The position numbers and the translations under genes were made by a program. Below are positions 23,314 to 33,626 of a DNA stretch of 64,000 bases, piece by piece. Positions within the stretch are counted from its first letter, which is position 1; each line of letters begins with the position of its first letter. The notes under the pieces were generated by a model. The model made no database searches. It was not told the DNA's origin and worked only from the letters and a program-made list of their open reading frames with translations. The stretch lies in contig NZ_QJTE01000002.1 of the NCBI RefSeq assembly GCF_003217255.1, positions 682,001 to 746,000 on the forward strand. Reading direction: 5' to 3'. Origin of the DNA: Pseudoroseicyclus aestuarii. Its GTDB lineage: Bacteria; Pseudomonadota; Alphaproteobacteria; Rhodobacterales; Rhodobacteraceae.

Positions 23314-24024
23314 CTATCGGAAAAGGGCCAGCACCCAGGGCGCCAGCAGGGAGGTCAGCATCGCGTTCAGCGCCATGCCGATGCCGGCAAAGGCGCCGGC
23401 GGTCTGGTGCACCTGCAGCGCGCGGGCGGTGCCGATGCCATGGGCGGCGACCCCGGCGGCAAAGCCGCGCGCGCGCCAGTCGCGCACCCGCAGCGCGTTC
23501 AGCAGCGGCGTGACGATGATCCCGCCGGTCACCCCGGTGATCAGCACCAGCGCCGCCGTCAGCGTCGGCGGGCCGCCGATCCGCTCGGCGATGCCGATGG
23601 CCACGGGGGCGGTGACGCTTTTCGCCGTCAGCGCCGTCAGCACCGCCCCGTCCAGCCCGAAAAGCCGCGCCAGCCCTAGCGCCGAGACCATGGCCACCAG
23701 CGCGCCCGCCAGCAGCGCCGCCGCCATCGGCAGGGCGGTGCGGCGGACATGGGCGATATTGGCGTAAAGCGGCACGGCGAGGCAGACCGTCGCCGGCCCC
23801 AGCAGGAAATGCACGAACTGCGCGCCCTCGAAATAGGTGTCGTAGTCGGTGCCCGTCGTCAGCAGCACGGCGGCAAGGATGCCGATCGCCAGCAGCACCG
23901 GGTTGGCCAGCGGGTTGCGCCCGGTGGCGGTGAAGATCGCGTCGCCCACGAGGTAGGCGCCCAGCGTCAGCCCCAGCCACAGAAGCGGGCCGTGCGACAG
24001 GTAGCTCCAGATATCGGGGATCAT
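23314..24024 (-). CDS. lrgB: LrgB family protein
   Basis: Inner-membrane protein of 236 aa, partner of LrgA/CidA holin-like proteins. Long hydrophobic helices are separated by family-typical loops: LGAYLVGDAIFTATGRNPLA, FLLGPATVCLAVPLYANIA, LTAKSVTAPVAIGIAERIGG, LVITGVTGGIIVTP and GVAAHGIGTARALQ. LrgAB pairs affect murein hydrolase activity in Gram-positives; in bacteria and plants several carry glycolate or pyruvate. Its ATG overlaps the lrgA stop (ATGA). Confidence 0.92.
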   Translation of the reverse strand: MIPDIWSYLSHGPLLWLGLTLGAYLVGDAIFTATGRNPLANPVLLAIGILAAVLLTTGTDYDTYFEGAQFVHFLLGPATVCLAVPLYANIAHVRRTALPMAAALLAGALVAMVSALGLARLFGLDGAVLTALTAKSVTAPVAIGIAERIGGPPTLTAALVLITGVTGGIIVTPLLNALRVRDWRARGFAAGVAAHGIGTARALQVHQTAGAFAGIGMALNAMLTSLLAPWVLALFR

Positions 24025-24380
24025 CGCAGCTGCTCCTGCCCGCCGGTCAGCCGCAGCACCCAGACGAAAACCAGCGCGGCGGCGGCGATGGCCAGCGCGG
24101 TGGAGGCGAGCAGCACCAGCGCGATGGCCAGCCCCTCGCGCTGCAGCAGGTCGAGGTAGCGGATCACGCCCACGCCCACCGGCACGAAGAGCAGCGACAG
24201 ATGCGCCAGCACGCCGCGCGCCGTCCCCTCGATCCGGGTGTAGAGGCGCGGCATGGCCAGAAAGCTCGCCGTCAGCAACGCCATGCCCAGCACCGGGCCG
24301 GGCAGCGGCAGCCCCAGCCCCTGCGAGATCGCCTCGCCGGCAAGCTGGTAGCACAGGATCAGGAAGAGATGGCGTATCAT
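24021..24380 (-). CDS. lrgA: CidA/LrgA family protein
   Basis: Small inner-membrane protein of 119 aa with four hydrophobic helices. The LPLPGPVLGMALL loop and the sequence LLFVPVGVGVIRYLDLLQ are the diagnostic LrgA motifs. Encoded directly before lrgB with 4-bp overlap, forming the standard two-component LrgAB module. Which of holin-like or organic-acid transport activity applies cannot be told from sequence; the neighbouring sugar-acid operon makes organic-acid transport plausible. Confidence 0.92.
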   Translation of the reverse strand: MIRHLFLILCYQLAGEAISQGLGLPLPGPVLGMALLTASFLAMPRLYTRIEGTARGVLAHLSLLFVPVGVGVIRYLDLLQREGLAIALVLLASTALAIAAAALVFVWVLRLTGGQEQLR

Positions 24381-24503: not shown

Positions 24504-24950
24504 TCAGTCGGCCCGGTCCAATGCACCGGGCGGAACGCCCATGGCCGCAGCGATCCGCCGCATGTCGTCCGGGGTGATCCGGCGCTTGGGTCCGCGCAGC
24601 AGCAGTCCCCAGTGTTCCTTATGGCCGCGCGTGAGGTCGAGACCCTCCAGAAGCGGACGAATGGCGGCGGGCCGAGCCTCGGCGACGTAATCGACATCCA
24701 CCCGGTAGGGATGGAAGCCCATCGCCTGCGCGGCATGGTAGGGCGCATCCGAGGTGACGCGCCCGATCGCCGTGAAGGTCTGCACCGGCGCGCCGGTCCC
24801 CATGCCCTCGCGCGGCGCATAGTAGGCGAGCCAGTCGCCCCTGCGCAGCGCCCGGATGGCATCCTGCCTGCCGTGGCCCAATTGCGCAAAGCCCCCCGCG
24901 ACACCCCCACGGACATGATCCGCCGAGGCGATGCCGATCCAGCAGGCCAT
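24504..24950 (-). CDS. EVE domain-containing protein
   Basis: Cytosolic protein of 148 aa consisting of a single EVE (PUA-like) domain: MACWIGIASADHVRGGVAGG, a central RRGDWLAYYAPREGMGTG pocket segment, TAIGRVTSDAPYHA, and a C-terminal GHKEHWGLLLRGPKRRI. EVE domains read modified nucleobases in DNA or RNA, and stand-alone versions have been associated with RNA metabolism and occasionally with defence loci. There is no restriction or defence gene beside it. It starts 3 bp downstream of the VOC gene stop and is probably co-transcribed with it. Confidence 0.85.
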   Translation of the reverse strand: MACWIGIASADHVRGGVAGGFAQLGHGRQDAIRALRRGDWLAYYAPREGMGTGAPVQTFTAIGRVTSDAPYHAAQAMGFHPYRVDVDYVAEARPAAIRPLLEGLDLTRGHKEHWGLLLRGPKRRITPDDMRRIAAAMGVPPGALDRAD

Positions 24951-24953
24951 CGC

Positions 24954-25328
24954 TCAGCCGGCCTGCGGGGCAGTATGCGCAGTGATGGTGTAGCCGAAGG
25001 GGTCCTCGAAGGCGAAGTAGCGGCCGAAGGGGCCGTCCTTGGGCGCGAAGGCAATCGTGACGCCCCGCGCCGCGAGGTGGTCATGCAGCGCCTCGGCGTC
25101 GTCGCAGCCGAACCACAGGGCGATCCCGTGACCGAGCGGGCGCGCGGCGTCGAGGTCGACGACGGGGGTGCGCACGGCAAAGGGGATCGGCTGGGTGTCG
25201 AACACCACGGCGCCCGGAGGCGCGAAGGCGGCCGGGGTCAGGCCGACGACCTCGGTATAGAAGGCGCGGGCGGCGTCGAGGTCCGCGACCTGAATGCCGA
25301 TGAAGTTGGGTCCGATGAGGTGGGGCAT
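24954..25328 (-). CDS. VOC superfamily protein (glyoxalase/bleomycin-resistance type)
   Basis: Cytosolic protein of 124 aa, one VOC module: NFIGIQVADLDAARAFYTEV at the start, HGIALWFGCDDAEALHDHLA in the middle and GRYFAFEDPFGYTITAHTA at the end, which carries a typical metal-ligand glutamate region. It is divergent from a MarR regulator gene 65 bp away, and two operator palindromes lie over the shared promoter. Such VOC-MarR pairs usually respond to electrophiles or antibiotics. Substrate unknown. Confidence 0.85.
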   Translation of the reverse strand: MPHLIGPNFIGIQVADLDAARAFYTEVVGLTPAAFAPPGAVVFDTQPIPFAVRTPVVDLDAARPLGHGIALWFGCDDAEALHDHLAARGVTIAFAPKDGPFGRYFAFEDPFGYTITAHTAPQAG

Positions 25329-25359
25329 GTAGATTGTCTTTCGTCTGGCGGAGTTCTAT

Positions 25360-25400
25360 TATCAGGCAACTGATATAGTATAAGCCTGCTGATATGACAA
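25360..25400. promoter_or_regulatory. Two MarR-type operator palindromes over a divergent promoter
   Basis: TATCAG-GCAA-CTGATA (25360-25375) is a perfect 6-4-6 inverted repeat. TATAAG-CCTG-CTGATA (25379-25394) is a second copy with one mismatch, centred 19 bp (about two helical turns) away. On the minus strand, TTGTCA (25395-25400) and TATATC (25372-25377) with a 17-bp spacer form a plausible promoter for the VOC gene, covered by both operators. The second site also abuts the first possible start codon of the MarR gene, which suggests autoregulation. Confidence 0.72.
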
Positions 25401-25837
25401 GCACCGATATGCCCTCGCCCGACACCGTTTTCGACGCGCACCAGTCCCTGGGATACGCCATCAAGCGGGCGCAGCAGGCCCTGCGCCTGCGCATGGACCG
25501 GCAGTTGAAGGAACTCGGGCTGACGGCCCCGCAGTACAACGTGCTGTGCAGCCTCGACGCCGAGCCGGGCGCCTCGAACGCGCGGCTGGCGCGCCGGGCT
25601 TTCGTCACGCCGCAGACCATGCAGTCGATGCTGGTGAAACTGGAACGCGCCGGCCTGATCGAGCGGAGCCCGGATGCAGAGCATGGCCGCATCCAGCGGA
25701 CGCAGCTTACCGAGGCCGGTCAGGACACGCTGACGAAGGCGCATCGCTGCGTGCATGAAACGGAGGTGATCGCCCGAAACGCGGCATCGCCGGACGCGGC
25801 CGAGATGCTGCTCAGGGTCGCGGAGGCTCTTTCGTAG
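25394..25837 (+). CDS. MarR family transcriptional regulator
   Basis: Dimeric winged-helix regulator of 147 aa (143 if the ATG at 25409 is used). LGYAIKRAQQALRLRMDRQL is the dimer helix; LTAPQYNVLCSLDAEPGASN and ARRAFVTPQTMQSMLVKLER form the helix-turn-helix, followed by the wing (GLIERSPDAEHGRIQRTQLT) and helices for dimerisation. Neither candidate start has a ribosome-binding site, and the first overlaps an operator palindrome, so the message may be leaderless or start at 25409. It most likely represses itself and the divergent VOC-EVE genes until a small-molecule ligand binds. Confidence 0.9.
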   Translation: MTSTDMPSPDTVFDAHQSLGYAIKRAQQALRLRMDRQLKELGLTAPQYNVLCSLDAEPGASNARLARRAFVTPQTMQSMLVKLERAGLIERSPDAEHGRIQRTQLTEAGQDTLTKAHRCVHETEVIARNAASPDAAEMLLRVAEALS

Positions 25838-25892: not shown

Positions 25893-26957
25893 TCAGGCTT
25901 CAGGTAGCGCCTTCTCGAAGGTGATGGAGGTCGGCGCGCCGTAGCCCGGGTGGGCCCTACGCGCCACCTCGTTGAAGCCCATGGCGGCGAAGGCGGCGTG
26001 GTTGGCGGTCAGCTCCACCCGCGACTGCAGGCGCAGGCGGGGCAGGGAGAGGGCCTTGGCCCGCTCGGCTGCCGCCTCGATCAGGCGGCGGGCAAGGCCC
26101 GCGCCGCGCGCGGCCGCATCGACGGCGATCTTGCCGAGGTAGAGCGCATCCTCCTGCGGCGTGAAGATCGCGCAGGCGCGCAGCGGCGTGCCGATGCCCC
26201 AGACCTCGCCGTCTTGCGCTTGCCCCTGCAGCGCGGCGAGGGTCAGGCGGTGCACGGAAGAAGGCGGGTCGATCCGCCCCTCCATGTAGGCGAAGCTGCG
26301 GTGGATCAGCGCCAGCGCCTGCGGCAGGGCCGGATCCACGGGGCCGAGGCAGCGGGGCGCATCCTCCGGCGGCCAGGGGATCACGGTCAGCTCGGGCCAC
26401 AGCGCCTTGTGCCGGGCGGCCTTGCCCTCGTGCGTGGCGCGGTTCGGCAGGAGCGTGTTCGGCAGGACGCGCAGGGCAAAGATATCGGCCAGCCCGTAGG
26501 GGGCGTAGATGTCGAACCCCTCGTCCGCGCGCAGGCGCATCCCGATGCAATGGGTGGCCGAGGCGAAGTGGTCGATGCCGTCGCGGGCCGAGGTCAGCGG
26601 CGCGCGGGCATGGCCGAAGTGATCCTCGAACCAGAGGTGCACCCGCGCCTGGTTGCGGACCTCCACCGGCGGCTGGGCGGCAAAGCAGGGGGCGGCGCGG
26701 CGGATCACCCGATCCTCGGCTTCCCAGCTGGTGTCGGGGTCGAAATAGAACAGGTCGATGTCCTTGACGCCCTGCAGGGCCGGGCGCCCCGTCAGTTGGT
26801 TCCAGACCGCGCCGTAAAGCGCGCCCGAGACGATCCACCAGTCCGGCAGGTCCAGCGCGCGGGCGGCGCGGAAGGCGGCCATCAATTCGGGGCAGGCCCG
26901 GACGATCTTCACGAGCCGCGCCTCCAGCCCCGCCTCGCCGGGGGCGGCGGCATCCAT
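25893..26957 (-). CDS. Fusion: nucleotidyltransferase-like domain plus GNAT acetyltransferase
   Basis: Cytosolic protein of 354 aa with two domains. Residues 1-190 look like the nucleotidyltransferase family PF06042/COG3575: WIVSGALYGAVWNQLTG (41-57), the metal-binding DID in GVKDIDLFYFD (63-73), and DGIDHFASATHCIGMRL (126-142). Residues 210-354 are a GNAT domain: LYLGKIAVDAAARGAGLARR (272-291) carries the acetyl-CoA loop (Arg284, Gly287), and LQSRVELTANHAAFAAMGF (310-328) the last core elements. Each half is recognisable; their fusion is unusual in my knowledge. The ATG overlaps the DUF1349 gene stop by one base, so the pair is co-translated. Substrates are unknown. Confidence 0.82.
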   Translation of the reverse strand: MDAAAPGEAGLEARLVKIVRACPELMAAFRAARALDLPDWWIVSGALYGAVWNQLTGRPALQGVKDIDLFYFDPDTSWEAEDRVIRRAAPCFAAQPPVEVRNQARVHLWFEDHFGHARAPLTSARDGIDHFASATHCIGMRLRADEGFDIYAPYGLADIFALRVLPNTLLPNRATHEGKAARHKALWPELTVIPWPPEDAPRCLGPVDPALPQALALIHRSFAYMEGRIDPPSSVHRLTLAALQGQAQDGEVWGIGTPLRACAIFTPQEDALYLGKIAVDAAARGAGLARRLIEAAAERAKALSLPRLRLQSRVELTANHAAFAAMGFNEVARRAHPGYGAPTSITFEKALPEA

Positions 26958-27523
26958 CAGTGGATCTCGCGCGGCGGGTCCGGCTGCAGGGTGAAGCCGT
27001 CGAAGCGGGCCGTCAGCCCCCCCCGCTTGGGCGAGCAGGCCATCGGCCCGACCTCGACCCGCCCCTCGGGAAAGCTGCACAGGCGGATCATCTCGGCGCC
27101 GCCTTCCGTCACATGCTCGATCTTCACGGCATCCTGCCAGCGGGTCAGGCGCAGCGTGACGGGGCCGGCATCGGTAAGCGGCGTCTTCGACCAGTCCGAG
27201 GCGGTCTGCGTGACTACGACCGAGAGCGCGCGGGCCCCGTCGGTATACTCCACCCCGGCCTTGATCCAGTGCAGCGGTCCGCTGCGCAGCATGATCCCGG
27301 CCTGGTCGTAGAGCGCGCTGTAATCGGCGTCGAAGGTCAGCTCGACCGCGAAATCGGCATGCAGCGCGTGATAGAGGAAGTGCCCCGAGGCCTCTTCGAG
27401 GCCGTAGTAGCTGCGCTGCCAGAAGTCGGTCTTCTCACCGGTGGTCAGGATCAGGCTGCTGCCCTCGACCCGGTGCTCGGGCGGCTCGTTCAGCCATTCC
27501 ATCGTCTCGAATCCGGGGGTCAT
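26957..27523 (-). CDS. DUF1349 domain-containing protein
   Basis: Cytosolic protein of 188 aa with a single DUF1349 (COG3506, concanavalin-like beta-sandwich) domain: WLNEPPEHRVEGSSLILTTG, TDFWQRSYYGLEEASGHFLY, LYDQAGIMLRSGPLHWIKAG, VEYTDGARALSVVVTQTASD and a C-terminal GPMACSPKRGGLTARFDGF. No signal peptide is seen. AGGAGG precedes the ATG at 27523; the upstream open frame has no family similarity. Members resemble carbohydrate-binding sandwich folds, but I know of no established function. It is the first gene of a two-gene operon with the fusion protein. Confidence 0.85.
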   Translation of the reverse strand: MTPGFETMEWLNEPPEHRVEGSSLILTTGEKTDFWQRSYYGLEEASGHFLYHALHADFAVELTFDADYSALYDQAGIMLRSGPLHWIKAGVEYTDGARALSVVVTQTASDWSKTPLTDAGPVTLRLTRWQDAVKIEHVTEGGAEMIRLCSFPEGRVEVGPMACSPKRGGLTARFDGFTLQPDPPREIH

Positions 27524-27934
27524 CGGGGCCTCCTGCGCCAGCGCTCGATCCGATCCTGCGCCGATTTGGACCGCGGGGTCCAGAGGCGGCGCCCGACCGC
27601 CTCGGAGGGTTGATCGGGGCACCGGCCGGCGCTGGGGCGAGGGGGGATGGGCGGTGCAGCGAAAGGGCGACGTCCGGGCCTGCTGCACCCTGCGCCTCCG
27701 GCGGGAGTATTTGGGGAAACATGAAGGGGTGTTCTTTGGACCTTCCCACCGTGTCTCGAGCGTCTGCCGGGCTTGGGCGAGGGCCTTGGCCCCGCGCAGC
27801 GCGGGGGCGTGCGCCCGGCCGGGACCAGTCGGGCGCGCTGCCGTCGGATACGGGATTGGCGCTGGCGGCGAGACGGTGCATCAGGGGCATATCGCCGCGC
27901 GGGTTGCGCGCGTGTCTCGGCAGGAGGCCGCATC
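27524..27934. other. 411-bp intergenic region with repeat copy C and a short hairpin
   Basis: Lies between the DUF1349 gene (leftward) and the small protein at 27935 (rightward). It contains family 2 repeat copy C (27703-27729) and a CCCCGCG-CAG-CGCGGGG hairpin (27790-27806). I see no convincing additional coding sequence: the open frames here lack ribosome-binding sites and have shadow-like arginine/proline-rich composition. Confidence 0.5.
27703..27729 (+). repeat. Dispersed repeat family 2, copy C
   Basis: GAGTATTT, three variable bases (GGG), then GAAACATGAAG. The two fixed blocks are identical in copies D (33718, inverted) and E (50344, inverted). No gene is nearby on the left for 180 bp. 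Confidence 0.7.
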
Positions 27935-28102
27935 ATGGATTACAGCAAGTCGGGCGGGACCAAGGGGCCCAAGGGCCAGCCCCGCCACAAGGAACACAAC
28001 GCGCCCGGGGGCGACAAGAACCCGTTCGGCAAGCGCAACGACGCCAAGGCCGACCTGGTGCGCAAGCTGAAGGAAGCGGCGCAGAAGCGCGAAGAAGGCT
28101 AG
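27935..28102 (+). CDS. Small basic protein, unknown function
   Basis: 55-residue, very hydrophilic protein. The N-terminal half is rich in Gly, Lys, Pro and His (SGGTKGPKGQPRHKEHN), and the C-terminal half is a predicted charged helix (DAKADLVRKLKEAAQKREEG). AGGAGG lies 9 bp before the ATG, a strong ribosome-binding site, which makes this more than a chance frame. I recall similar short proteins as conserved hypotheticals in Rhodobacteraceae but know no function; composition suggests an intrinsically disordered nucleic-acid-associated protein. Its stop interlocks (CTAG) with the convergent GNAT gene. Confidence 0.72.
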   Translation: MDYSKSGGTKGPKGQPRHKEHNAPGGDKNPFGKRNDAKADLVRKLKEAAQKREEG

Positions 28103-28620
28103 GCGGGCAACCGCTTTTCCATGAAGACGCTGACGCCGTTGTCGGCATAGCTGCCGAAGACGCCGCAGCGGGTGAAGCCCTGCCGCTCGTACAGGCGGCA
28201 GGCCGCCTCCAGCGCCTCGCCCGTCTCCAGCCGGAGGAGCGGCAGACCCTCGGCGCGGGCGGCCTCCTCGACCCTCCGCAGCAGGGCGAGCGCGACGCCG
28301 CGCCCGCGGGCCTCTTCGGCGGTGAAGAGGCTTTTGACCTCTCCGTAGCCCGCCTTGACCTGCAGGGCGCAGCAGCCCAGCGGGGTGCCCGCCGCGTCAT
28401 GGGCCGCGAAGAAGCGGATGTCCGGACCCTCCAGCTCCTCGATCTGCAGGAAGTTGTTCTCTTCCGGCTTGTAGAGCCGGCGCATCAGGGCCTGGCTGGC
28501 CTGCAGCAGCGCCAGCGGGCCGGGGTCGCGGGGGCGCGCCGGGGCTATGGTGTAGCCTGCTGCCTCGGGCGCGCTCATGCCGCCGCCAGAGACAGCGGTT
28601 GCGGGGATCTTGGCGGGCAT
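28099..28620 (-). CDS. GNAT family N-acetyltransferase
   Basis: Acetyltransferase of 173 aa (159 if the ATG 42 bp downstream is used). ITIAPAR-type opening (YTIAPARPRDPGPLALLQAS), FFAAHDAAGTPLGCCALQVK (core beta hairpin), VKSLFTAEEARGRGVALALL with the acetyl-CoA motif RGRGVA, and LEAACRLYERQGFTRCGVFG, the standard final motif. GGAGG five bases before 28620 supports the longer form. The pattern matches ElaA/YesJ-type small GNATs often misnamed as ribosomal-protein acetyltransferases; substrate unknown. Confidence 0.88.
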   Translation of the reverse strand: MPAKIPATAVSGGGMSAPEAAGYTIAPARPRDPGPLALLQASQALMRRLYKPEENNFLQIEELEGPDIRFFAAHDAAGTPLGCCALQVKAGYGEVKSLFTAEEARGRGVALALLRRVEEAARAEGLPLLRLETGEALEAACRLYERQGFTRCGVFGSYADNGVSVFMEKRLPA

Positions 28621-28741
28621 GGGGCCTCCGGGTTCGGGTGGTATCAAGCGGCCTGGAAGAGGCGCGGCGACTGTGCGGGCAGCGTGGAGGGAGGGTCAAG
28701 GCCCGCGCCGCCGCCTTCCGCGGCCCTCCGACCCGTAAAAT

Positions 28742-28769
28742 TTGACCTGCCTCACCGAATCGTTAACTT
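28742..28769 (+). promoter_or_regulatory. Candidate promoter of the cfa-like gene
   Basis: TTGACC (28742-28747), 16-bp spacer, TAACTT (28764-28769), in an AT-rich patch 32 bp before the start codon at 28801. Resembles a housekeeping sigma-70 promoter; I do not see the TGATCC -35 element expected for an RpoE-dependent promoter. Confidence 0.35.
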
Positions 28770-28800
28770 TTCCTCGGGACCCATCACCAAGGGGAGAGCC

Positions 28801-30063
28801 ATGTGGTCAGAGGCGATCAACCAGATGCTCCGCCAGTGGATGCGGAAGGGCGCGCTGACCCTGCATCTGCCTGACGGCACCGCCCGATCCTACGGGGACG
28901 GGACGGCGCCGCAGGTCACCCTGCGCATCCACGACGACGCGACGCTCAGGCGGCTGGCCCTGAACCCCGACCTCGCGCTGGGCGAGGCCTACATGGAGGG
29001 CAGCCTGACCGTCGACGGGGACGATCTGCACGGCCTGCTGGAGCTGGTGCTGCGCAACTTCGGCGGCGGGCGGCGCAGCTGGTGGAACCTGCCGGGGCGC
29101 TGGCTGCGCAAGGCCCGGCGCGGGCTCGACCAGCGCAACATCGCCGCCTCCTCGCGCCGCAACGTGGCGCATCACTACGACCTGCCGCCGCGGCTCTATG
29201 ACCTCTTTCTCGACGAGGACCGGCAGTATTCCTGCGCCTATTTCCGCGATCCCGGCGACGGGCTCGAGCAGGCGCAGCTGCAGAAGAAGCATCACATCGC
29301 CCGCAAGCTGCGGCTGGAGCCCGGACTGCGGGTGCTGGACATCGGCTGCGGCTGGGGCGGCATGGCCCTGACGCTGGCGCGCGATTACGGCGTGCAGGTC
29401 ACCGGCGTCACGCTGTCCGAAGAGCAGCTGAAGGTCGCGCAGCGCCGGGCGCGCGAGGAGGGCCTCGAGGACCGGGTGGAGTTCCGCCTGCAGGATTACC
29501 GCGCGGTGACCGAGACCTTCGACCGCATCGTGTCCGTGGGCATGTTCGAACATGTCGGCCTGCCGCAGTTCGACCCCTACTTCCGCGCCGTGCACGACCT
29601 GCTGGCCGAGGATGGCGTCGCTCTGGTCCATACGATCGGCTGGGCCGGCCCGCCGGGATCGACCAACCCCTGGATCGCCAAGTACATCTTCCCCGGCGGA
29701 TACATCCCCTCGCTGTCCGAGGTGGCGCCGGTGATCGAGAACAATGGCCTGTGGCTGACCGACCTCGAATGCCTGCGCCTGCACTACGCCCTGACCCTGC
29801 GGCACTGGTACGATCGCTTCACCGCGCGGCTGGACGAGGCGCGCGAGATCAACGACGAGACCTTCGTGCGGATGTGGAAATTCTACCTCGTCGCCTCGGA
29901 GCAGAGCTTCCGCTTCAACAGGCAGGACGTCTTCCAATTCCAGATCAGCAAGCGGCTGGATGCCGTGCCGATCACCCGCGACTACCTGTACCGGTCCGGG
30001 CTGGTCCCGCGGCAGGCCGAGGTCGAGACCCTCGACCGCGCGAGGGACCACGCGGCAGAGTGA
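28801..30063 (+). CDS. cfa: Cyclopropane-fatty-acyl-phospholipid synthase family methyltransferase
   Basis: SAM-dependent enzyme of 420 aa that methylates the double bond of unsaturated acyl chains in membrane phospholipids. An N-terminal lipid-binding region (TLHLPDG, ALGEAYMEGSLTVDGDDL) leads to the catalytic domain: NVAHHYDLPPRLYDLFLDED, YSCAYFRDPGDGLEQAQLQK, the SAM site LDIGCGWGGMALTLARDYGV (about 179-198), and VGMFEHVGLPQFDPYF. The ribosome-binding site is AGGGGAGAG. A related enzyme in Rhodobacter sphaeroides methylates acyl chains on the way to furan fatty acids, so this gene could be either type; the RpoE-ChrR lipid locus lies 6 kb downstream. Confidence 0.9.
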   Translation: MWSEAINQMLRQWMRKGALTLHLPDGTARSYGDGTAPQVTLRIHDDATLRRLALNPDLALGEAYMEGSLTVDGDDLHGLLELVLRNFGGGRRSWWNLPGRWLRKARRGLDQRNIAASSRRNVAHHYDLPPRLYDLFLDEDRQYSCAYFRDPGDGLEQAQLQKKHHIARKLRLEPGLRVLDIGCGWGGMALTLARDYGVQVTGVTLSEEQLKVAQRRAREEGLEDRVEFRLQDYRAVTETFDRIVSVGMFEHVGLPQFDPYFRAVHDLLAEDGVALVHTIGWAGPPGSTNPWIAKYIFPGGYIPSLSEVAPVIENNGLWLTDLECLRLHYALTLRHWYDRFTARLDEAREINDETFVRMWKFYLVASEQSFRFNRQDVFQFQISKRLDAVPITRDYLYRSGLVPRQAEVETLDRARDHAAE

Positions 30064-30076
30064 CCATATCTTGGGG

Positions 30077-30102
30077 GCATCTGTTTCGGTGCCTCCAGAT
30101 GC
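30077..30102 (+). terminator. Weak hairpin between cfa and smc
   Basis: GCATCTG (30077-30083) and CAGATGC (30096-30102) form a 7-bp stem with a 12-nt loop, 13 bp after the cfa stop. No T-run follows, so its role as terminator is uncertain. Confidence 0.35.
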
Positions 30103-30161
30103 TGCGCGGTCAAGATTGACTCTGCGCCGCCCTCTCCGGCACTCTTGGTGCAAAAGGGCAG

Positions 30162-33100
30162 ATGTCAGGCATGCGATTCACCCGCCTCAGGCTGAGCGGC
30201 TTCAAGAGCTTCGTCGATCCGACGGAACTGGTCATCGCGCCGGGTCTGACGGGCGTCGTCGGGCCCAATGGCTGCGGCAAGTCCAACCTGCTCGAGGCGC
30301 TGCGCTGGGTGATGGGCGAAAGCCGCCCCACGGCGATGCGCGGCGGCGGGATGGAGGACGTGATCTTCGCCGGCGCCGCGACGCGCCCGGCGCGGCACCA
30401 TGCCGAGGTGACGCTGGTCATCGACAATACCGACCGCCTCGCCCCCGCCGCCTTCAACGATGCCGATACGCTGGACGTGGTGCGCCGCATCACCCGCGAT
30501 GCCGGCAGCGCCTACCGTGTCGGCGCCAAGGAGGCGCGGGCCCGCGACGTCCAGATGCTCTTTGCCGATGCCTCGACGGGCGCGCATAGCCAGGCGCTGG
30601 TGCGGCAGGGACAGATCGCTGAGCTGATCAACGCCAAGCCCGCGCAGCGGCGCCGCATCCTGGAAGAGGCGGCCGGCATCTCGGGCCTGTACCAGCGCCG
30701 CCACGAGGCGGAGCTGAAGCTGCGGCAGGCCGAAGGCAACCTCGCCCGCCTAGACGATACCGTCGGCGCACTGGCCTCGCAGCTAGCCTCGCTCGCGCGG
30801 CAGGCGCGGGCGGCGGCGCGCTACCGCGAGATCGGCGCCGCCCTGCGCCGGGCCGAGGCGCTGCTGCTCTGGCGGCGCTGGCACGAGGCCGGGATCGCCC
30901 TGGCCGAGGCCGAGGCGTTGCTGCGCGAGCAAGCCGCCGAAACCTCTCGCGCCGAAGGGGCCGCGCGCGCCGCCCTCTCGGCCCGGACCGAGGCCGAGAC
31001 CGCCTTGCCGCCGCTGCGCGAGGAGGATGCCGTCGCCACCGCCCTTCTGGCGCGGCTGGAGACCGAGGAAGGCACCCTGGACGAGCGCGCGCGCCGAGCC
31101 GAGGGCACGATCCGCGCCGTGACCGGGCGGCTCGACCAGATCACCCGCGACCGCGCCCGCGAAGAGGCGCTGACCCGCGATGCGGACGAGGTGATGACCC
31201 GCCTGCGCGCCGAGGGCGAGACGCTGCGCGCCGCCGGCGAGGGCCACGAGGCGCGCCTCGCCGAGGCGCAGGAGCAGGCCGTCGAGGCCGCGCGGAACCT
31301 CGAGGCCCGCGAGGCGGAGCTTTCGGAGGGCACCGAGGAGGTCGCCCGCCTCTCCGCGCGCCACCAGTCGGGCCAGCGCCTTGTGCAGGATGCGGCCAAG
31401 ACCCTCGCGCGCGAGGAGGCCGCCGCCGAGAAGGCGCGCGAGGCCGCCCGCGCCGCGCAGGACGCCGCCACCGGCGCCGAGGCCGCGATGGCGCAGGCCG
31501 GCACCCGGCAGGAGGAGGCGCAGGAAGCCCTCGCGCAGGCAGAGACCGCGCTCGAGGCGGCAGAGGCCGCGCGCGCCCAGACGCAAGGCGAAGAGGCCGA
31601 GGCCCGCTCTGCCCGCTCTGCCGCGGAGGGCGAGGCCAGCGCGCTCAAGGCCGAGGCCGCCGCCCTGTCGCGGCTGGTGGAGCGCGAGGCCGGCGCCGGC
31701 ACGCAGCTTCTCGACCGGCTCGAGGTGCATGCGGGCTACGAGGCCGCCTTGGGCGCCGCGCTGGGCGAGGATCTGCAGGCGCCCGAGATCGCGGGCGAGG
31801 GCGCCTTCGGCTGGGACGCGCTGCCCGATTACGAGGCGCCGCAGCCGCTGCCCGGCGGGGCGCGCGTGCTGGGACAGGTGGTCAACGCGCCGCCGGTGCT
31901 GGCCCGGCGCCTGGCGCAGATCGGCGTGGTCTCGCCCGAAGAGGGGGCGCGGTTGCAGGCCCTGCTGCAACCCGGCCAGCGCCTCGTCAGCGAGGCGGGC
32001 GATCTCTGGCGCTGGGACGGCTACCGCGCCTCGGCGGGCGATGCCCCCAGTGCCGCCGCCCTGCGCCTGCAGCAGTTGAACAAGCTTGCCGCGCTGAAGG
32101 ACGACGTGACGCGCGCCGAGGCGCAGGCCGATCAGGCCCGCAGCGCGCATGAGACCCTGTCGCAGCGCCTCAAGCAGCAGGCCGAGGCCGATGCCAGCGC
32201 CCGCCGCGCCCGTCGCGAGGCCGATGCCGCTGTGGCCGAGGCCGCCCGCGCGCTCTCCCGCGCCGAAAGTGACCTGACATTGGCGCAGGGCCGGCTCGAG
32301 ACCGCGCAGCTGGCCGAGGCGCGCCACGCCGAAGAGGCCCGCGCCGCCCGCACCGCCAGGGCCGAGGCCGAAGCCGCGCTGGCAGAGCTGCCCGATCTCG
32401 GGGCCGCGCGCGAGGCGGTCGAGGGGCTGCGCCGCACGGTCGAGGCCGCGCGGATCGAGACCATGTCCCGCCGCAGTGCCGAGGGCGAGCTGCGCCGCGA
32501 GGGCGAGGCCCGGACCGCCCGCGAGGCCGCGATAGCGCAGGAGCTCGCGGGCTGGGACAAGCGCCTCTCCGGCGCCTCCGGCCGGATCGAGGAGCTGACC
32601 GAGCGCGAGGTCTCTGCCCGCCGCGATCTCGACCGCGCCCAGCGCGTCCCCGGCGAGATCGCCGAGCAGCGCGAGGGCCTCGGCCAGCGTCTGGCAGAGG
32701 CAAAGGCGCGGCGCGGCGCGGGCGCCGAGGCGCTGGCCGGCGCCGAGGCTCGCCTGCGCGACGCTCTCGAGGCCGAGCGCGAGGCAGAGCGTCAGGCCGG
32801 CGCCGCGCGCGAGGCCCGCGCCCGCGCCGAGGCCCGCGCCGATGCCGCCCGCAGCGCCGTGGAGGAGGCCGCCCAGCGCAGCGACGAGGCGCTGGAGATG
32901 GCGCCCGAGGCCATCCTCGCCGCCTTCGAGGCGGAAGAGGCCGAGGTTCCCGCCATCCCCGCGCTCGAAACCGAGGCCGCGGGCCTGCGCCGGCAGCGCG
33001 ATGCGCTCGGCTCCGTCAACCTGCGGGCCGAGGAGGACGCGCAGGAGATCGCGGGCGAGCACGAGACCCTGATCCGCGAGAAAGCCGACCTCGAGAATGC

Positions 33101-33626
33101 CATCGCCACGCTGCGGCAGGGCATCGCCAGCCTCAACAGCGAGGGGCGGCAGCGGCTTCTCGATGCCTTCGAGGAGGTGAACGCCAATTTCTCGCGCCTC
33201 TTCACCCATCTCTTCGGGGGCGGCGAGGCGCGGCTGGAGCTGGTCGAAAGCGCCGATCCGCTCGAGGCGGGGCTGGAGCTTCTGTGCCAGCCGCCGGGCA
33301 AGAAGCTGCAGGTGCTTTCGCTGCTCTCGGGCGGCGAGCAGACGCTGACCGCGCTGGCGCTGATTTTCGCCGTCTTCCTCGCGAACCCGGCGCCGATCTG
33401 CGTGCTGGACGAGGTCGACGCCCCGCTGGACGATGCCAATGTCACCCGCTTTTGCGACCTGCTCGACGAGATGACCCGCAGCGCCGACACGCGCTTTTTG
33501 ATCATCACCCACCACGCGGTGACAATGAGCCGGATGGACCGCCTCTTCGGCGTGACCATGGGCGAGCAGGGCGTCAGCCAGCTCGTCAGCGTCGATCTGA
33601 AAAAGGCCGAAGCGCTGGTCGCCTGA
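30162..33626 (+). CDS. smc: Chromosome segregation protein SMC
   Basis: ATPase of 1154 aa that compacts and organises the chromosome with ScpA and ScpB. N-terminal head: LRLSGFKSFVDPTELVIAPG and Walker A GVVGPNGCGKSNLLEALRWV. Then a long alanine/arginine/glutamate-rich coiled coil (about 170-490), a compact hinge (about 500-640, GTQLLDRLEVHAGYEAALGA), a second coiled coil, and the C-terminal head with signature LSLLSGGEQTLTALALIFAV, Walker B CVLDEVDAPLDDANVTRFCD and the His switch ITHHAVTM. AAGGGCAG precedes the ATG. Length and architecture are complete. Confidence 0.97.
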   Translation: MSGMRFTRLRLSGFKSFVDPTELVIAPGLTGVVGPNGCGKSNLLEALRWVMGESRPTAMRGGGMEDVIFAGAATRPARHHAEVTLVIDNTDRLAPAAFNDADTLDVVRRITRDAGSAYRVGAKEARARDVQMLFADASTGAHSQALVRQGQIAELINAKPAQRRRILEEAAGISGLYQRRHEAELKLRQAEGNLARLDDTVGALASQLASLARQARAAARYREIGAALRRAEALLLWRRWHEAGIALAEAEALLREQAAETSRAEGAARAALSARTEAETALPPLREEDAVATALLARLETEEGTLDERARRAEGTIRAVTGRLDQITRDRAREEALTRDADEVMTRLRAEGETLRAAGEGHEARLAEAQEQAVEAARNLEAREAELSEGTEEVARLSARHQSGQRLVQDAAKTLAREEAAAEKAREAARAAQDAATGAEAAMAQAGTRQEEAQEALAQAETALEAAEAARAQTQGEEAEARSARSAAEGEASALKAEAAALSRLVEREAGAGTQLLDRLEVHAGYEAALGAALGEDLQAPEIAGEGAFGWDALPDYEAPQPLPGGARVLGQVVNAPPVLARRLAQIGVVSPEEGARLQALLQPGQRLVSEAGDLWRWDGYRASAGDAPSAAALRLQQLNKLAALKDDVTRAEAQADQARSAHETLSQRLKQQAEADASARRARREADAAVAEAARALSRAESDLTLAQGRLETAQLAEARHAEEARAARTARAEAEAALAELPDLGAAREAVEGLRRTVEAARIETMSRRSAEGELRREGEARTAREAAIAQELAGWDKRLSGASGRIEELTEREVSARRDLDRAQRVPGEIAEQREGLGQRLAEAKARRGAGAEALAGAEARLRDALEAEREAERQAGAAREARARAEARADAARSAVEEAAQRSDEALEMAPEAILAAFEAEEAEVPAIPALETEAAGLRRQRDALGSVNLRAEEDAQEIAGEHETLIREKADLENAIATLRQGIASLNSEGRQRLLDAFEEVNANFSRLFTHLFGGGEARLELVESADPLEAGLELLCQPPGKKLQVLSLLSGGEQTLTALALIFAVFLANPAPICVLDEVDAPLDDANVTRFCDLLDEMTRSADTRFLIITHHAVTMSRMDRLFGVTMGEQGVSQLVSVDLKKAEALVA

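Follow-up and report, generated by a model that had tools for sequence, protein, structure and literature searches.

The reading frame at this locus raises two questions: whether a nucleotidyltransferase (NT) and a GNAT acetyltransferase are truly joined in one protein, and why these two enzymes should share a chain. The window, i.e. the whole stretch of 64,000 nucleotides of Pseudoroseicyclus aestuarii DNA that was analysed, contains the frame of 354 amino acids without internal stop between positions 26957 and 25893 of the minus strand. The NT half matched PF06042 with 168.3 bits (cut-off 25) over positions 2-159 of 159, and the GNAT half matched PF00583 with 35.7 bits (cut-off 20.7) over residues 261-328. 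The conserved DxD carboxylates D66 and D68 were invariant in an alignment of 24 sequences. The sequence RGAGLA (R284xxG287xA289) conforms to the GNAT acetyl-CoA loop R/Q-x-x-G-x-G/A; among 25 aligned sequences G287 was invariant, R284 and A289 were present in at least 90 %. Judged by these alignments, both enzyme halves carry intact active-site motifs. A preliminary description had reported a PF06042-like NT with a DID motif at residues 66-68 joined to a complete GNAT domain and had asked for the catalytic residues in relatives; family matches and residue conservation confirmed it on both points.

The junction was located by comparison with separate homologues. The NT reaches its natural end (...PWP), four residues (PEDA) follow, and the GNAT begins at its natural start (PRCLGPVDPAL). 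The GC3 content was even at 0.90-0.98 across this junction. In the 354-residue protein, two enzymes that most relatives encode separately are genuinely fused. Structure prediction with AlphaFold, also suggested in the preliminary description, supported both domains: the NT domain alone reached a pLDDT of 94.6, and in the full-length model (mean pLDDT 82.7) the GNAT was well formed, the placement of NT relative to GNAT being unreliable (pTM 0.57). The GNAT half matched GNAT folds in the PDB, many of them N-acetyltransferases. The NT fold aligned to 2LA3 with a Z of 19.1 over 179 residues; the nearest folds thereafter were CCA-adding enzymes with Z of about 7 to 11.5, the highest for 3h3a (Z 11.5). 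The NT head of ~200 residues runs directly into the GNAT, and the neck, body and tail of CCA-adding enzymes are missing. Because these further domains are lacking, a small molecule is the more likely acceptor of the NT than tRNA.

Table 1. Features of the fused gene, its neighbours and the second fusion; positions refer to the window, for the second fusion to locus L111
Feature	Position	Strand	Evidence
Fused NT-GNAT gene, 354 aa	25893..26957	-	PF06042 nucleotidyltransferase + GNAT
NT domain, residues 31-192, CCA-adding-enzyme head fold	26382..26867	-	PF06042, E 1.6e-49
D66-I-D68 metal-binding motif	26754..26762	-	invariance in alignment
Junction, residues 197-200 (PEDA)	26358..26369	-	NT end ...PWP / GNAT start PRxL...DPAL
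GNAT domain, residues 201-354	25896..26357	-	PF00583, E 1.2e-8; GNAT folds in PDB
RGAGLA acetyl-CoA loop, residues 284-289 (RxxGxA)	26091..26108	-	conserved in relatives
DUF1349 gene (P0002), 188 aa	26957..27523	-	PF07081, E 2.1e-54
GNAT2, cob-cluster passenger kept	28099..28548	-	65 % to GNAT beside cobW in relatives
LrgA, cob-cluster passenger kept	24021..24380	-	53 % to Limimaricola LrgA
LrgB, cob-cluster passenger kept	23314..24015	-	63 %
Second fusion, L111, another genus of same family, 353 aa	7848-8909	-	PF06042, E 8.2e-43; PF00583, E 1.5e-9

As a rule each domain has a gene of its own, frequently in the interval from cobN to cobO, a point missed by the preliminary description. Separation was seen in nearly all relatives, and most stand-alone GNATs of the family shared 48-63 % identity with the fused GNAT half. 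Closest to the window NT were the NTs of four Limimaricola loci (74-79 % identity, clade support 97/98). Counted at E <= 1e-30 in a family sample of 394 genomes, about 15 genomes carried the NT, two of them in fused form. The proposed search for PF06042 combined with an acetyltransferase thus yielded a second fusion, in L111, and no further full-length fusion in a class-wide sample of 385 genomes. Plasmids gave 78 matching records, none covering 80 % of the query; no phage, viral-contig or PADLOC match was obtained, and a link to phages or defence is unsupported. The second fusion is followed by a separate GNAT1 gene and preceded by cobW-GNAT2-cobN. In both fusions the NT stops at almost the same point; their GNAT halves share about 40 % identity and belong to different subfamilies. 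In the GNAT tree the fused GNAT of L111 grouped with the GNAT' of L037 (support 100/99), apart from the window GNAT. A single clade of the two fused NTs was rejected by the AU test (p 0.011), a single clade of the two fused GNATs was not (p 0.25). Independent origins of the two fusions are therefore likely on these phylogenetic grounds, not certain; the fusion is rare and has probably arisen twice.

Close pairings of NT and GNAT genes were present in cob clusters of other genomes. In L036 the NT is followed by an overlapping GNAT in a different frame, in L037 a GNAT' precedes the NT with an overlap of 4 nt, and in four cob clusters (L003, L038, L040, L041) NT and GNAT lie within one gene's distance. 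In many genomes the GNAT stands among unrelated housekeeping genes without an NT, so a coupling of NT and GNAT is not general; further NT genes likewise have housekeeping genes of no evident relation around them. Stand-alone GNAT1 genes of two other genera lie divergent beside an SMC gene (L060 6117-11519, L064 6226-10704), and the fused gene of the window is a few genes away from smc (30162-33626, plus strand; interval 25893-33626). The NT gene of one cob cluster (L083 6446-6724, minus strand) looks broken, with a frame of 92 amino acids and a stop inside the family match.

Sixteen NT loci, among them all four Limimaricola loci, formed part of cobalamin clusters and had cobN, cobO or both as neighbours, often with a GNAT nearby; these NT loci were picked by similarity to the window protein and are not an unbiased sample. 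The usual order was cobW-GNAT2-cobN-NT-(GNAT, GFA, NYN protein or LrgAB)-cobO. The window presents GNAT2, NT-GNAT, LrgA and LrgB in the matching order on one strand, and cobW, cobN and cobO are absent from this cluster. The CobN, CobO and PduO families (PF02514, PF02572, PF01923) had no match in the whole window genome; CobO was found in 186 of 248 family genomes. The window genome retains cobH and cobL, so its cobalamin pathway is better described as incomplete than as wholly absent. Since the module was kept without detectable cobN or cobO, it is probably not a step of cobalamin synthesis. Between the fusion and LrgAB (24504-25837) the window encodes an EVE-domain protein and a glyoxalase-fold protein on the minus strand and a divergent MarR regulator on the plus strand. 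Elsewhere in the window genome (C2, at about 466-469 kb; L081 17779-19901, minus strand, continuing in L082 1-885), a precorrin-8X methylmutase domain of the CbiC/CobH type (PF02570) seems to be joined to a long N-terminal region read from L082 and is followed by a cobL-like gene; both were kept although cobN and cobO were not detected. In Limimaricola cinnabarinus LL-001 (L035 7004-8404) the matches to LrgB and CobO came in pieces, which suggests frameshifts or draft errors.

The gene preceding the fusion had been named a DUF1349 partner whose frame ends one base before the NT start. The family assignment was correct (PF07081, 184.3 bits, cut-off 32.4); the spacing was not, since the stop of DUF1349 and the start of the NT share one base (TGATG). 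The suggested check of the conservation of this partner turned out negative. DUF1349 was present in 17 of 389 relatives and stood beside an NT or GNAT in none of the loci inspected; in L104 it lay about 4 kb from the cob cluster, several genes off. It was rejected as functional partner and is an incidental neighbour, the coupling being local to the window. DUF1349-like domains of a different kind from this single-domain protein occur in another genome (G101:C1:2576552-2579713), as four repeats with an exact spacing of 915 bases and identical scores in one open frame of 1663 codons.

For the fused protein we propose two coupled small-molecule-modifying enzymes that arose from neighbouring genes, a reading to which the sequences lend an even chance. 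An NTP would serve as NMP donor for the NT, which would modify a small acceptor through two-metal chemistry at the DxD motif; the GNAT would take acetyl from acetyl-CoA and place it on an amine, either of that substrate or of one linked to it. The pair may form a coupled module in Rhodobacterales that works like the ANT-AAC aminoglycoside enzymes and would often travel in the cobN-cobO interval. A coupled action is supported by the two-enzyme chain, the intact motifs and the second, apparently independent NT-GNAT fusion; against it stands the small share of fused genomes, only 2 of about 15. The preliminary description had read the locus as modification of a shared small substrate together with the DUF1349 protein. 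A coupled action of the two enzymes fits the comparison; for a pathway of three parts including DUF1349 the comparison gave no support. More tentative is the wider view of an undescribed Rhodobacterales module that would both nucleotidylate and acetylate a single metabolite. Such a module would accompany cobalamin genes, would have been fused at least two times in independent events and would persist after core cobalamin enzymes are lost.

An origin of the fused frame in an assembly or sequencing error joining two adjacent or overlapping genes is very unlikely. The overlapping pair of L036, in different frames at nearly the same spacing, could be joined by an indel of one base, and with one extra base in the assembly the NT would end at nt 649, with which the sequence alone is compatible; the window junction was read in one genome of the genus. 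With a lost base, however, the true NT frame would stay open to nt 998 instead of closing at its natural end, the GC3 content is even through the junction, and a second genome has a fusion of matching length, whose probably independent origin speaks against an artefact. Least probable of all is an RNA-directed enzyme, with a CCA-adding-like head that would work at the 3' end of an RNA and a GNAT that would acetylate this RNA or a group attached to it. The kinship of the NT fold to CCA-adding enzymes favours such a role, but no body or tail region separates head and GNAT, and none of the named GNAT families, whether RNA-directed or of another kind, matched the GNAT half at its cut-off.

The fusion could also reflect proximity only, if unrelated small genes tend to gather between cobN and cobO and adjoining frames there occasionally fuse without functional coupling. 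This is a possible explanation, though a doubtful one. GFA, LrgAB and an NYN-domain protein share the interval in varying combinations, GNAT1 occurs there without NT in four loci (L011, L015, L016, L017), and the NT-bearing genomes are mostly unfused. Yet two fusions with different GNAT subfamilies and a near-identical NT end point exceed a single accident, overlapping NT and GNAT pairs exist in both orders, and the fused form keeps its catalytic motifs intact. A corrinoid or some other intermediate of the cobalamin pathway is an improbable substrate of the module. The 16 cob-cluster loci argue for such a substrate, and because cobH and cobL were kept in the window genome, a corrinoid-related role retains some weight. 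On the other hand, the module persisted where cobN, cobO and PduO were not detected, and in other genera NT genes stand without cob neighbours (L042, L044, L051, L053-L055, L070).

Coupled enzymes would matter for a family with one NMR structure and no reaction found in the literature, for which the GNAT fusions hint at the partner chemistry. A literature search on PF06042, NTP_transf_6 and COG3575 found neither a function nor a characterised member. The apparently independent fusions and the overlapping NT/GNAT pairs narrow the search to substrates that would offer an amine as well as a group able to accept a nucleotide. By parting the module from cobN and cobO, the window genome helps to decide for or against a cobalamin step.

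Among known systems, the structure 2LA3 (NP_344798.1) belongs to the same PF06042 family (NTP_transf_6) and has the same fold; its title names a CCA-adding enzyme head domain. Unlike the fusion, it consists of one domain (191 aa) and lacks a GNAT; no report of an activity was found for it. CCA-adding enzymes (tRNA nucleotidyltransferases) share the head-domain fold and the DxD motif, but carry extra tRNA-binding domains that are missing here. The fusion in L111 is similar in architecture, length, junction point and cob-cluster context, and differs from the window fusion by its other GNAT subfamily, the separate GNAT1 after it and the presence of cobN. The preliminary description knew of no characterised example. 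One that shares the architecture is ANT(3'')-Ii/AAC(6')-IId from Serratia marcescens, a nucleotidyltransferase and an acetyltransferase in one chain with both domains active, as far as described in PMC6017855, citing Kim et al. 2006. According to that account its NT is of the ANT(3'') type and its substrates are aminoglycosides, in contrast to the PF06042 domain here, and our gene lies on the chromosome, in what was formerly the setting of a cob cluster, and without resistance context. AAC(6') family models scored about 12-22 bits on the GNAT half (cut-offs 140-325); for the NT half Pfam gave PF06042 alone and NCBIfam nothing at E <= 1, hence no AadA/ANT(3'') membership. The likeness to ANT-AAC enzymes would thus be one of mechanism only, the tested family features having failed here. 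The architecture of nucleotidyltransferase and acetyltransferase has a precedent; the PF06042 plus GNAT variant of such a bifunctional enzyme is new.
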